Positions 13,030 to 64,000 of a stretch of DNA of 64,000 nt are shown here, piece after piece. The number at the start of each line of letters is the position of its first letter. Position 1 is the first letter of the stretch. Both the position numbers and the translations under genes were made by a program. The notes below the pieces were generated by a model. That model did not search any database. It was given only the letters and a program-made list of their open reading frames with translations, and had not been told where the DNA came from. Origin of the DNA: Flavobacteriia bacterium (GTDB lineage Bacteria; Bacteroidota; Bacteroidia; Flavobacteriales_D; Crocinitomicaceae); the NCBI GenBank assembly GCA_947450325.1, contig CANFUT010000004.1:62001-126000 (forward strand). Direction: 5' to 3'.

Positions 13030-13042
13030 TCGTATTTCATAA

Positions 13043-13147
13043 TTGCAGATTGTTAAATTGTAAATTCCAGATTGTCAAATTCCAGATTGCAAATTATTAA
13101 ATTATATCCCAATTTGTTAATCTTCTAATTTCCTAATCTGCCAATTT
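13043..13147. repeat. Degenerate short-repeat array between murC and murG
   Basis: The gap and the last codons of murG consist of repeated 7-8 base units. The left half has units of the type AGATTNN/AAATTNN (for example CCAGATTGT and CCAGATTGC). The right half has the reverse-complement type NNAATCT/NNAATTT (TTAATCTTC, CTAATTTCC, CTAATCTGCC). The array therefore has dyad symmetry at the level of units. It interrupts an otherwise tightly packed operon and runs into the 3' end of murG. Confidence 0.6.
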
Positions 13148-14239
13148 ATTTATCTTCTCCAATTCATCCACAATCATCGCACTTGCATTTGGTTTTCCTA
13201 GTTGAGCGATTGCTTCACTTAATTTATGTAATTTTTCTTCAGATTTTAATAGGACAATTGTCGATAAAATCAAGTCTTTTTTCGCATCGATGTCTTTCAC
13301 CAAAACCGCTGCGTGTTTATTCACCAAAGCCATTGCATTTTTGGTTTGGTGGTCTTCCGCAACGTTCGGCGAAGGAACTAAAACAGTTGGTTTTTGAATC
13401 AAACACAATTCTGAAACGGAAATTGCTCCAGCACGAGAAATGATAATGTCTGCTGCTGCGTAAGCTAAATCCATGCGCGCAATAAATTCATTCAAATGAA
13501 TGCCATCATGTTTGGTTTGACTCAGTGTTTCTTTCATTTTTTCGAAATAGAATTTACCACATTGCCAAAGCACTTGCACTTGATTTTCTTCTATCAATTT
13601 CATTCCTTCTAGTACACTTTCGTTCAAAGTGCGTGCACCCAAACTTCCACCAATGACTAAAATTGTTTTTTTGTTTGGATTGAGTCCAAAGAATTGATAA
13701 GCTTCGTCTTTTTTTCCTTTAATGTCAATCATTTCTGATCGCACAGGATTTCCAGTTTCGACAATTTTATTTTTTGGAAAGAACTTTTCTAAACCATCAT
13801 AGGCTGTACAAATCGTATTTACTTTTCCAGAAAGAATTTTATTTGTTTTCCCTGGAAAAGAATTTTGTTCTTGAATCAAGGTTGGAATTCCTGCAAAAAT
13901 CGCGGCTCTCAATGTTGGTCCACTGGCGTATCCTCCAACTCCAACAACAACATCTGGCTTGAAATTCTTTACTATCTTATAAGCCTTAAGTAAGCTGTTA
14001 ATCAATTTAAAAGGCAAAACGAAATTTGAAAGAGTCAATTTTCTTTGTAAACCAGCGATTGGTAAACCGATGATTTTGTAGCCAGCGGCAGGTACTTTTT
14101 CCATCTCCATTTTTCCCAAAGCACCCACAAAAAGAATTTCCGCATCCGGATTTCTTCGTTTGATTTCATTGGCAATGGCCAAAGCAGGAAAAATATGACC
14201 TCCCGTTCCACCACCTGATATGATTGCTCTTTTTATCAT
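13133..14239 (-). CDS. murG: UDP-GlcNAc--undecaprenyl-PP-MurNAc-pentapeptide GlcNAc transferase
   Basis: A 368-residue GT-B fold glycosyltransferase that turns lipid I into lipid II on the inner membrane face. The N-terminal glycine loop GGTGGHIFPALAIA is at residues 10-23 and the second loop VGVGGYASGPTLRA near 100. The C-terminal donor site has GGSLGARTLN near 198 and SRAGAISVSELCL near 270. It overlaps ftsW by four bases. The last residues INKLAD are encoded in the repeat array, which may have replaced the original C-terminus. Confidence 0.96.
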   Translation of the reverse strand: MIKRAIISGGGTGGHIFPALAIANEIKRRNPDAEILFVGALGKMEMEKVPAAGYKIIGLPIAGLQRKLTLSNFVLPFKLINSLLKAYKIVKNFKPDVVVGVGGYASGPTLRAAIFAGIPTLIQEQNSFPGKTNKILSGKVNTICTAYDGLEKFFPKNKIVETGNPVRSEMIDIKGKKDEAYQFFGLNPNKKTILVIGGSLGARTLNESVLEGMKLIEENQVQVLWQCGKFYFEKMKETLSQTKHDGIHLNEFIARMDLAYAAADIIISRAGAISVSELCLIQKPTVLVPSPNVAEDHQTKNAMALVNKHAAVLVKDIDAKKDLILSTIVLLKSEEKLHKLSEAIAQLGKPNASAMIVDELEKINKLAD

Positions 14240-60967: not shown

Positions 60968-63373
60968 ATGAATAGAAACATTCGAAAAGTAGCCGTTCTC
61001 GGCTCAGGTGTAATGGGTTCTCGCATTGCTTGTCACTTTGCCAATATCGGCTGTGAAGTGCTTTTGCTGGATATTCAGCCCAAAGAACTGACAGAGAAAG
61101 AGCTAAAATCAGGTTTGTCCGCAGATTCACCGCAATTTAAAAACAGAATTGTAAACGAATCTTTGGAATTTGCGGTAAAATCAAATCCGTCACCGATTTA
61201 CAGAAAATCTTTCGCGAGTCGCATTAAGACTGGAAATTTCACCGATGACATGGCGCAAATTTCCACTGCAGATTGGATCATCGAAGTGGTTGTGGAAAGA
61301 TTGGACATCAAAAAAACAGTTTTTGATCAAGTTGAAAAATTTCGCAAAGCTGGTACAATTATTTCTTCCAACACATCTGGAATTCCGATTCATTTGATGT
61401 TGGATGGCAGAAGCGACGATTTCAAAGCACATTTTTGTGGAACGCACTTCTTCAATCCACCAAGGTATTTGCAATTGTTGGAGATCATTCCTACGCCTGC
61501 AACGAATCCTGAAATTGTTGATTTCTTGATGGATTTTGGTAGCAGAATGTTGGGCAAGAAAACAGTGCTTTGTAAAGATACTCCAGCATTTATTGCGAAT
61601 CGAGTAGGAGTTTATTCCATCATGGCACTTTTCCACGCGGTGAAAGACATGGGATTCACTGTTGAAGAAGTGGATAAATTGACTGGTCCGGTGTTGGGTC
61701 GACCAAAATCAGCGACTTTCAGAACGTGTGATGTTGTTGGTTTGGATACTTTGGTGCACGTTGCCAACGGATTGAAAGCGAATTGTCCGGACGATGAAGA
61801 AAAAGACTTGTTTGAATTGCCAGATTACGTTGCCAAAATGGTTGAAAACGGCTGGTTGGGATCAAAATCAAAACAAGGATTTTACAAAAAAGTGACCAAC
61901 GCAGAAGGAAAATCTGAGATTTTAAGCTTGGATTTGACCACTTTGGAATACCGTTCTGCTTCGAAAGTGAAATTTCCAACTTTGGACATGGCGCGACCAA
62001 TTGACGATTTGAAACAACGCACCAAAATGTTGTTTATGGGAATGGACAAAGCTGGTGAGTTTTATCGTACACTTTTCGGTGGTTTATTTGCATACGTTTC
62101 CAACAGAATTCCTGAAATTTCTGACGAACTATATAAAATTGACGATGCCATCAAAGCTGGTTTTGGATGGGAATTAGGTCCTTTCGAAACTTGGGATATA
62201 TTAGGTTTTGATCAAGGATTGAAAATGTTGGAGAAATCAGGGAAAAAGCCTGCCGCTTGGATTTTAGAGATGAAATCAAAAGGCGCTACTTCGTTTTATC
62301 AACAATCCAAAGGACAAAAATCTTACTACGATATTCCAACAGGAACGTATAAAATCATTCCTGGAACAGAGAATTTGGTCATTCTAGATGCATTGCGCGC
62401 TGAGAATACCCTTTGGAAAAATTCAGATGCAACTTTGGTTGATTTGGGAGATGGAATCTTGAATTTAGAATTCCACACCAAAATGAATACCATTGGTGGT
62501 GGCGTGATTGAAGGAATCAATAAAGCGATTGATTTTGCAGAGAAAGATCAAAAAGGTTTGGTAATTTCCAATACGGGGCAGAATTTCTCTGCGGGAGCAA
62601 ATGTCGGAATGATTTTCATGATGGCAGCTGAGCAAGATTACGATGAATTGAATTTTGCTGTTAAAGCTTTTCAAGACACAATGATGCGTGTGCGCTATTC
62701 GAATATTCCTGTAATTGTTGCGCCACACAATATGGCGCTAGGTGGAGGTTGTGAACTTTCGATGCATTCAGACAAAGTGGTTGCGCATGCAGAATTGTAT
62801 ATGGGACTGGTTGAGTTTGGCGTTGGTTTGATTCCCGGCGGCGGCGGTTCGAAAGAATTTGCAAAACGACTTTCCGATGAAATGCGTGAAGGCGATATCA
62901 AAATCAATCGTTTGAGAGAAAAATTCTTGACAATCGGTCAAGCAAAAGTCTCAACATCAGCTTATGAAGCTTTTGATTTAGGTTATTTGCGTGAAGGAAC
63001 TGATGAGGTTGTTGTGAGCCGTGATCACCAATTATTGCGCGCAAAACAAGCGTGTTTGGAAATGGCAAACAAAGGCTACATCGCACCAAAACGCGAGAAA
63101 AACATAACGGTTTTAGGTCAAGAAGGCTTAGGAATTGTCTATGTCGGCGCCAGTTCGATGGTTTCAGGAAACTACATGTCGGTCCACGACCAAGTGATTT
63201 CCGAAAAACTAGGATTCGTACTTTGCGGCGGCGATTTATCAGCAAATACAATTGTTTCAGAACAATATTTGCTTGACTTGGAACGAAAAAAATTCCTAGA
63301 GCTCTGCCAAGAACGCAAAACCTTAGAGCGCTTGGAAAGTTTGGTTAAGAATGGGAAAATTTTAAGAAATTGA
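60968..63373 (+). CDS. fadN: 3-hydroxyacyl-CoA dehydrogenase / enoyl-CoA hydratase (FadN-like)
   Basis: An 801-residue bifunctional beta-oxidation enzyme with the dehydrogenase first and the hydratase last, the order of Bacillus FadN and the reverse of E. coli FadB. The NAD loop VLGSGVMGSRIA is at residues 9-20, the dehydrogenase catalytic His is in GTHFFNPPRYLQLLE near 158, and the C-terminal hydratase has NFSAGANVGMIF near 538 and GGGCELSMHSD near 594. It works with a thiolase, and the start of one follows after the inserted four-helix-bundle gene. Confidence 0.92.
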   Translation: MNRNIRKVAVLGSGVMGSRIACHFANIGCEVLLLDIQPKELTEKELKSGLSADSPQFKNRIVNESLEFAVKSNPSPIYRKSFASRIKTGNFTDDMAQISTADWIIEVVVERLDIKKTVFDQVEKFRKAGTIISSNTSGIPIHLMLDGRSDDFKAHFCGTHFFNPPRYLQLLEIIPTPATNPEIVDFLMDFGSRMLGKKTVLCKDTPAFIANRVGVYSIMALFHAVKDMGFTVEEVDKLTGPVLGRPKSATFRTCDVVGLDTLVHVANGLKANCPDDEEKDLFELPDYVAKMVENGWLGSKSKQGFYKKVTNAEGKSEILSLDLTTLEYRSASKVKFPTLDMARPIDDLKQRTKMLFMGMDKAGEFYRTLFGGLFAYVSNRIPEISDELYKIDDAIKAGFGWELGPFETWDILGFDQGLKMLEKSGKKPAAWILEMKSKGATSFYQQSKGQKSYYDIPTGTYKIIPGTENLVILDALRAENTLWKNSDATLVDLGDGILNLEFHTKMNTIGGGVIEGINKAIDFAEKDQKGLVISNTGQNFSAGANVGMIFMMAAEQDYDELNFAVKAFQDTMMRVRYSNIPVIVAPHNMALGGGCELSMHSDKVVAHAELYMGLVEFGVGLIPGGGGSKEFAKRLSDEMREGDIKINRLREKFLTIGQAKVSTSAYEAFDLGYLREGTDEVVVSRDHQLLRAKQACLEMANKGYIAPKREKNITVLGQEGLGIVYVGASSMVSGNYMSVHDQVISEKLGFVLCGGDLSANTIVSEQYLLDLERKKFLELCQERKTLERLESLVKNGKILRN

Positions 63374-63420
63374 GACTATAGACAGAAGACATTAGACTAA
63401 AGACAATAGACGAAAGACAT
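63373..63420 (+). repeat. AGACNNN heptad array, upstream side of the four-helix-bundle gene
   Basis: Directly after the fadN stop, AGAC recurs every seven bases in seven units (spacers TAT, AGA, ATT, TAA, AAT, GAA, ATT). The array leads up to the four-helix-bundle gene. A matching array in opposite orientation (GTCTNNN) lies at its other end. Confidence 0.75.
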
Positions 63421-63426
63421 TTGATT

Positions 63427-63774
63427 ATGAAACATAATTTTAGAGAACTTAAGATTTGGAAAGATTCTATTGAGATCGTGAAGTCGATTTATCTTTTGAC
63501 TAGTGAATTGCCTGATGATGAAAAGTTTGGTTTAAAATCTCAATTGCAAAGATGTGCAGTGTCTATTCCATCTAATATTGCAGAAGGTTCTGGTAGATCT
63601 ACAAATAAAGATTTTAGAAATTTTCTGAATATGGGTCTTTCATCTTCTTATGAATTAGAAACTCAACTAATTATTGTTAGCGAGTTATTCAACTTTGAAA
63701 TTGTTGAATTAATTGAAAAACTTCACGAAATACAAAGAATGATTATTGGATTTAAGAAAACATTAGAAGTCTAG
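63427..63774 (+). CDS. Four-helix-bundle protein (23S rRNA intervening-sequence type)
   Basis: A 115-residue protein from the ATG at 63427 (MKHNFRELKIWKDSIEIVKS); a TTG two codons upstream is also in frame. The hallmark RCAVSIPSNIAEGSGR is near residues 41-56, followed by FRNFLNMGLSSSYELETQLI. The family is named from proteins encoded in intervening sequences of 23S rRNA in some bacteria; many copies, like this one, stand alone. Function is unknown. Its stop overlaps the start of the GTCTNNN array. Confidence 0.9.
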   Translation: MKHNFRELKIWKDSIEIVKSIYLLTSELPDDEKFGLKSQLQRCAVSIPSNIAEGSGRSTNKDFRNFLNMGLSSSYELETQLIIVSELFNFEIVELIEKLHEIQRMIIGFKKTLEV

Positions 63775-63806
63775 TCTCGAGTCTTAGGTCTCATGTCTTC
63801 AGTCTA
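63769..63806 (-). repeat. GTCTNNN heptad array, downstream side of the four-helix-bundle gene
   Basis: GTCT occurs at the gene's last codons and then five times at seven-base period (spacers CGA, TAG, CAT, TCA, AAA). It is the reverse complement of the AGACNNN type on the other side, so the two arrays are inverted relative to each other. Confidence 0.75.
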
Positions 63807-63821
63807 AAAAAAAGTATAAAA

Positions 63822-64000
63822 ATGGCAAATACAGCATACATAGTAGCAGGCTACCGCTCGGCGGTGGGGAAAGCGGGGAAAGGTGGATTTAGATTCTATC
63901 GTCCTGATGATTTAGCGGCAGATGTGATCAAGCATTTGATGAAACAATTTCCACAGTTGGACTCTGGTCGCGTGGATGATGTGATCGTTGGAAATGCGAC
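63822..64000 (+). CDS. fadA: Acetyl-CoA acyltransferase (thiolase), N-terminal part, cut by window end
   Basis: The first 59 codons from the ATG at 63822 (MANTAYIVAGYRSAVGKAGK) run off the window end in frame. The YIVAGYRSAVGK start, the RPDDLAADVIKHLM helix and VDDVIVGNA strand are those of the thiolase N-terminal domain; the catalytic Cys lies beyond the window. It matches the partner thiolase of the FadN-like enzyme. The fadN-fadA pair would be adjacent without the inserted four-helix-bundle cassette. Confidence 0.88.
   Translation, partial: MANTAYIVAGYRSAVGKAGKGGFRFYRPDDLAADVIKHLMKQFPQLDSGRVDDVIVGNA

Follow-up and report, generated by a model that had tools for sequence, protein, structure and literature searches.

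Intervening sequences (IVSs) in the 23S rRNA genes of Leptospira, Coxiella and Brucella carry one small open reading frame (ORF), S23p/IVP, between complementary arms inside a transcribed host unit. In Coxiella, this PF05635-family (S23p) gene is reported to lie in a stem that is cut by RNase III, three tandem GACAGAT heptamers (two in some strains) stand just upstream of its start, and the ORF is described as being under reductive evolution (PMC4990558). Here, we describe a gene of the same family in a 64,000-nt stretch of Flavobacteriia DNA (hereafter the window; GCA_947450325.1, contig CANFUT010000004.1, positions 62,001 to 126,000, forward strand), where it lies between two protein-coding genes, fadN and fadA, and is framed by two inverted arrays of heptad repeats (63373-63806). 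We propose, with a probability of about one half, that this unit belongs to a widespread family of IVS-like cassettes that are small, mobile and probably selfish and reside in transcribed operon spacers.

The 5′ arm of the unit, (AGACNNN)x7 (63373..63421, + strand), was read from the sequence, with AGAC at 63373, 63380, 63387, 63394, 63401, 63408 and 63415, i.e. seven units at an exact 7-nt spacing. The four-helix-bundle gene (63427..63774, + strand) encodes 115 aa from an ATG at 63427 to a TAG at 63772-63774. Its stop codon overlaps the 3′ arm (63769..63808, − strand), which consists of an extra, offset GTCT at 63769 and, 5 nt further on, a regular (GTCTNNN)x5 array with GTCT at 63774, 63781, 63788, 63795 and 63802, again exactly 7 nt apart. 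The extents of the arrays themselves are 63373-63418 (AGAC) and 63769-63805 (GTCT). Direct reading therefore confirmed the arrangement described in the original prediction, from which the names fadN and fadA are taken. An inverted-repeat search aligned the arms over 33 nt, with 79% complementarity, and showed them to be periodic. This pair scored 38 and ranked first among 381 ORFs scored in 464 kb of the genome; only two of the 381 reached 36, the second being a plain repeat rather than an array, and given this top rank the pair is not a chance occurrence. On either side, the unit abuts its host genes closely. The fadN-like gene (60968..63373, + strand; 801 aa) ends in a TGA at 63371-63373, the last base of which is the first A of the 5′ array, and 16 nt separate the end of the 3′ array (63805) from the start of the fadA-like thiolase gene at 63822 (63822..64000, + strand), which is cut by the end of the window.

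Profile matches placed the encoded protein firmly in the IVP family (23S_rRNA_IVP), above the curated cut-offs and over nearly the full profile length, both for Pfam PF05635 (E 7.1e-33; 113.4 bits versus a cut-off of 33.8; profile 1-105 of 106) and for NCBIfam TIGR02436, 'four helix bundle protein' (9e-32; 109.5 bits versus 24; profile 1-109 of 109). Solved homologous structures are 2gsc and 2rld, with five chains each, and a relative with a solved structure is described as a pentamer (PMC10053308, PMC4990558). Avd of diversity-generating retroelements is a related four-helix bundle, and homology between Avd (4DWL) and 2GSC has been noted (PMC10053308). The window protein is not itself an Avd by profile, its matches to bAvd (E 0.026; 15.5 bits versus a cut-off of 40) and DivGenRetAVD (E 0.029; 14.7 versus 80) falling well short. 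Rfam gave no match in window positions 62800-64000, and there was no match in a phage collection, hence no sign of phage carriage. Since the cassette is located between two protein-coding genes, it is not classed as a 23S rRNA IVS; with complementary terminal arms around its ORF, it is like a relative of one. It differs from the rRNA elements in its host, a protein-coding operon, and in that both arms are periodic arrays of a cassette-specific word. Kinship with rRNA intervening sequences, as originally suggested, holds in spirit, given the Coxiella heptamers upstream of S23p (PMC4990558), but the accompanying idea that AGAC defines the ends of the element does not.

We examined framing across the family in 159 PF05635 loci, nearly all from Bacteroidota, of which 80 came from 36 genomes of the genus and family (our own count) and 79 were named loci. 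Those too near a contig end were left out, so that 159 of 161 were scored. The named loci (79 of 80 used) were the best of at least 581 matches and are therefore biased in favour of the window protein's close relatives; their titles name Bacteroidota in nearly all cases, with one each for Chlorobiota, Limnohabitans, Patescibacteria and Gracilibacteria. A search of 60 genomes had found a match in 54, only part of these matches being taken, and ORF calls were mechanical and uncurated. Inverted complementary flanks with a score of at least 30 were present at 112 of the 159 loci, compared with 5.2% of mismatched upstream/downstream flank pairs, 11/211 neighbouring ORFs and 10/159 loci when the flank was reversed but not complemented. 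The loci titled Patescibacteria and Gracilibacteria (L230 and L239) scored 48 and 40. In the 112 framed loci, pairs of the same trinucleotide numbered 2059 at lag 7 and 751 at lag 8, against 138-227 at lags 3-6 and 9-13, and the median aligned arm was 33 nt, or 4.7 heptads. Among same-spacer orthologues at fadN–fadA in 21 genomes, own flanks scored 34.4 versus 21.1 for mismatched flanks (permutation p 5e-5). In agreement, relatives that carry the gene at this site mostly have inverted arrays, of other words; that all of them should lack the arrays, which the original prediction had named as evidence to the contrary, is not the case.

The genome of the window holds four PF05635 genes, three of which scored 38-44 for inverted framing and the fourth 22. 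The three framed genes have three words: AGAC at fadN–fadA, AGATTG at sufB–sufC and AGAAT at atpA–atpG. From these comparisons, the array frame goes with the PF05635 gene family, and the layout, rather than the AGAC word, is its signature. The GACAGAT heptamers of Coxiella are an independent sign that heptads accompany the family. The protein is also under purifying selection, differences between 13 pairs of related family genes being distributed 129:71:409 over codon positions 1:2:3, whereas the Coxiella ORF is described as being in reductive evolution. Beyond the main set, 13 of 20 plasmid IVP loci (19 cyanobacterial and one from Gemmatimonadota; 20 of 40 matched plasmid records were used) were framed, or 11/17 without near-duplicates (L334/L341, L343/L344 and L345/L346), with words including AGGGAGT, GGGAACA and AGGTGAC. 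Three cyanobacterial plasmid IVP genes (L335, L347 and L340) lie inside CRISPR operons, twice between cas6 and cas4 and once between cas10/cmr2 and cmr3, and are flanked by 7-8 nt arrays, which in L335 are direct, not inverted.

The word of a locus was defined as the 4-mer profile of both arms for 110 of the 112 framed loci (in-frame stop excluded), and sites were called different when blastp gave no match between flanking ORFs, a definition under which short ORFs can be missed. Even between different genomes and different sites, more similar proteins had more similar words (rho 0.23, p 0.001); rho was 0.226 when both flanking ORFs were called, and the phylum set by itself gave 0.164 (p 0.009). 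Chance was also rejected when words were shuffled among loci within multi-copy genomes (p 0.001). Word sharing within a genome was ruled out as the source of this correlation, because unrelated IVPs of one genome (similarity 0.188, n = 56) were no more alike than those of different genomes (0.213, n = 965). The array word differs between cassettes but, on these measures, tracks the lineage of the protein and not the genome or site.

Evidence for a discrete unit also comes from its distribution at fixed sites. Host genes other than fadN and fadA were named from reading their translations, except in annotated plasmid records. At 50 loci with fadN, fadA was the next gene within the available sequence in 43, and the spacer between them held an IVP gene in 21 (419-630 nt) and none in 22 (1-148 nt; 21 nt or shorter in eight). 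The clearest case is the site in the window itself. Between G000, the genome of the window, and a second species, G004, identity is 94.9% for fadN and 97.7% for fadA, while the intervening cassette gene is only 64.2% identical in nucleotides and 54% in protein, and the words are AGAC and AGGAT, respectively. G003 is more distant from G000 (fadN 90.5%) and has a cassette gene that is 85.3% identical. As such similar host genes flank such different cassettes with different words, the whole cassette has apparently been replaced at one site. Similarly, the rpsO–pnp spacer contains a full unit in G052 and none in its congeners G039 and G020. In a pair of Nostoc plasmids, the IVP gene is identical at 362/363 positions and the arms at 97-100%, compared with 82.6, 94.5 and 86.9% for flanking genes. 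At fixed operon sites, gene and arms are thus found, missing or changed as a whole, which bears out the earlier proposal of an array–gene–array cassette, with arrays at its ends, inside host operons. The tree is compatible with both long residence and movement at fadN–fadA. Monophyly of the IVPs from this site was not obtained: 19 of the 21 fall in one weakly supported branch (83), joined by eight from other sites, and a larger fasttree needs nine changes.

Some homing elements and transposons carry repeated binding sites at either end; such elements are discrete units with recurrent fixed sites, replacement at the site and inverted ends. The window cassette resembles them in being a discrete unit with inverted ends at recurrent sites, with the same site occupied in 21/43 fadN–fadA spacers and exchange suggested by the G000/G004 difference and the Nostoc identity peak. 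It differs from them in its protein, in which Pfam and NCBIfam scans revealed no site-specific endonuclease domain. The ORF between the arms matches PF05635 and no transposase family; target duplications were not assessed.

The spacers that lack an IVP gene are not all empty. Hairpins stronger than all 30 shuffles were present in 8 of the 14 IVP-free fadN–fadA spacers of at least 48 nt, some of them of other repeat types, and an array hairpin persists at deoC–ALDH in both G000 and G004. Therefore, the gene can also be lost, or be inserted where a hairpin already exists. At rpsO–pnp, the spacer is taken up by AGAC/GTCT array hairpins, with no IVP gene, in G000 (L319), G003 (L317) and G004 (L318). 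By eye, the sdhA–sdhB spacer of G020 (L287) contains an apparent decayed IVP remnant between arrays, those of G003 and G027 seem to have retained one arm or both but no gene, and the fadN–fadA spacers of G056, G059 and G060 have another hairpin repeat, of the CCCCCTTTGGAGGGGG type, and no IVP gene.

The cassettes are also oriented with respect to their hosts. Both neighbours were co-directional with the cassette at 108 of 112 loci (119 loci with at least 2 kb of sequence were examined, and seven with an uncalled neighbour were dropped), compared with 166 of 346 ORFs in G000. G exceeded C in the 5′ arm of 104 of the 112 framed loci, with the reverse in six and ties in two. The cassette thus appears to live on operon transcription.

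This fixed sense relative to transcription would also suit an mRNA intervening sequence, in which the arms pair in the transcript and RNase III cuts the long stem, so that the fadN message is parted from that of fadA and the IVP message is set free, with no protein reading the arms. The arms are indeed complementary and paired in the predicted transcript fold, and the rRNA IVS of Coxiella has the same gene family in an RNase III-cut stem with heptamers before the gene (PMC4990558). However, the z-score of the whole-unit fold is only −1.58 and a simple stem needs no 7-nt period. Over the 112 arm pairs, mismatches of the G.U type (147) showed no excess over those of the A.C type (145), and the order of units within own arms gave pairing at or below 0.05 in 21.4% of 84 cases, no better than the 22% of 250 mismatched arms of the same word. 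Pairing of the arms in RNA, as originally predicted, is therefore possible in the predicted fold but bears no mark of selection for base-pairing. An apparent register effect (p 9e-15) was withdrawn as selection bias, because mismatched same-word pairs show the same effect, and an RNA stem under selection found no support, the G.U versus A.C test being flat. Both expected marks of a selected RNA stem are absent. Within a locus, it is the word that is conserved, in inverted orientation, which speaks for arrays of recognition sites rather than a simple duplex, although it proves neither. We regard the mRNA intervening sequence as rather unlikely.

The symmetric mismatches would fit copying at the DNA level, and the gene might then be a mere passenger: heptad hairpins would arise by replication slippage and hairpin template switching, and IVP genes would land or survive in their loops without any functional tie. 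Gene-less array hairpins do occur in the same spacers of sister species (deoC–ALDH in G000/G004, rpsO–pnp in G000/G003/G004 and fadN–fadA in G040/G053), and the number of units varies between near-identical copies. This origin is improbable in our judgement, because words track the lineage of the protein between sites and between genomes, the arms differ together with the gene in G000/G004, and the whole unit can be absent with no array left (G002 at fadN–fadA; G039 and G020 at rpsO–pnp). A 394-kb sample from two genomes that lack a PF05635 match contained no strong intergenic array of 7/8-nt period, which also speaks against a passenger, yet neither did 200 kb of the IVP-rich G008. More improbable still is that the arrays are host elements, terminators or 3′-end stabilisers of operon messages, bound by a host regulator encoded between them. 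Such a role could account for the conservation of the protein, for the ∼11 of 25 inspected array loci (own count) in which the array starts within ∼15 nt past a stop codon in the same sense, and for the several inverted pairs that end in T runs. It sits poorly with the patchy presence of the gene (21/43 spacers, with 8 of the 22 IVP-free ones no longer than 21 nt), with its apparent replacement by a divergent version in G000/G004, and with the lack of shared words among unrelated cassettes of one genome.

In the mobile-cassette reading that we prefer, each cassette would consist of one PF05635 gene and two inverted arrays of a 7-8 nt word. The encoded four-helix bundle would bind its own heptads, on DNA or RNA, perhaps with one heptad unit per subunit, and the bound protein would tie the two cassette ends together and so define them. 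TRAP-like ring proteins, which read spaced RNA triplets, offer a comparison. This might let the cassette move, either through homing-like conversion or through excision, with transcription provided by the operon. Arrays that occur elsewhere in the genome without a gene would be left over from such cassettes or serve as their targets.

Several observations count against this reading. The framing threshold of 30 was picked after the first scores had been seen, and at this score 47 of the 159 relatives are unframed, one clade (L004, L042, L044 and kin) is framed in only 2/7 loci, and direct repeats, instead of or besides inverted ones, also reach 30 in 32/159. The word–protein correlation is modest, is not significant within single genomes (rho 0.17, p 0.097, 75 pairs), and might arise if arms and gene are inherited together, with no recognition involved. 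Regarding movement, the identity profile of the Nostoc plasmids is mosaic elsewhere too, and a hairpin-first order, i.e. insertion of the gene into a pre-existing hairpin, is possible. Neither a transposase nor an endonuclease domain showed up in the Pfam and NCBIfam scans of the window protein, and enzymes that might act in trans were not searched for. Because two cyanobacterial copies (Nostoc and Calothrix) are antisense to both neighbours, co-direction is not absolute. Finally, G008 has eight IVP genes and no strong dispersed 7/8-nt array in the 200 kb mentioned above.

Cyanobacterial heptamer repeats go by the name STRR. Together with Xanthomonas GGGAATC, Nostoc GGGGATT and Beggiatoaceae/Bacteroidetes TAACTGA, these known heptameric repeats are like the present arrays in their 7-nt period and in being intergenic and dispersed, and those of Xanthomonas are usually near the 5′ neighbouring ORF and often in convergent inverted pairs (PMC4692102, PMC4679880). 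Xanthomonas campestris has 186 GGGAATC-type arrays, including 70 convergent inverted pairs, at a mean of 28 nt from the next 5′ neighbouring ORF (PMC4692102), and encodes XCC0516, the PF05635 relative of entry 2gsc (PMC10053308). The SPADE authors rank heptamers first in abundance among the tandem DNA repeats of intergenic regions and see 'no clear clue' to what they do (PMC6344855). Unlike the arrays described here, the known repeats are not tied to the IVP family in the available portions of these papers (PMC4692102, PMC4679880, PMC6344855). In open-licence literature (most subscription papers lay outside the search), we found no paper tying heptad arrays to PF05635 as a frame.

Heptad repeats frame PF05635 genes in Bacteroidota, in loci titled Patescibacteria and Gracilibacteria, in Cyanobacteria and on one Gemmatimonadota plasmid. 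A broader and more tentative proposal, which we consider possible but doubtful, is that PF05635 proteins are readers, and perhaps makers, of heptamer repeats throughout bacteria, each lineage having its own 7-nt word. The inverted arrays would be the ends of a new class of mobile cassettes independent of any known transposase or nuclease, the dispersed heptamers of Bacteroidota, Cyanobacteria and (as a prediction) Xanthomonas would be solo ends or copies acted on in trans, and the rRNA IVS would be a special case. The present data link unexplained bacterial heptamer repeats to one protein family, which makes them testable, and suggest a view of rRNA intervening sequences as one niche within a broader group of cassettes that live in operons.

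Arrays without a gene are numerous in the genome of the window. The exact pattern (AGACNNN)x3AGAC occurs 76 times, compared with 0 for the reversed control, and the arrays are therefore a dispersed family. By our own count they form ∼32 separate AGAC arrays, all but two of which lie away from the four PF05635 genes of the genome, and gene-less inverted array pairs are also present. Of 60 family genomes, 20 contain the exact AGAC pattern. A universal role for AGAC in marking cassette ends, and with it the predicted role of the AGAC core as the ends of the element, is rejected, as the words differ between cassettes and AGAC arrays are dispersed. The related concern that arrays might be common with no tie to the gene family is half borne out: many are gene-less, but many match cassette words of their own genus, and do so better than random sets in 8/15 cases in G000 and 4/4 in G060. 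A simple read-out of IVP number by dispersed arrays is unsupported, given the G008 result and an IVP-less sample of only two genomes. Within the window, positions 13041-13158 hold an inverted array pair of the AGATTG/AAATT type, similar in kind to the pair around the sufB–sufC IVP gene, with no evident gene between its arms. By eye, a recurrent intergenic motif resembling GCGAAGCGGGTCTTT lies near arrays at four G000 loci (L005, L007, L077 and L080) and is possibly a terminator family.

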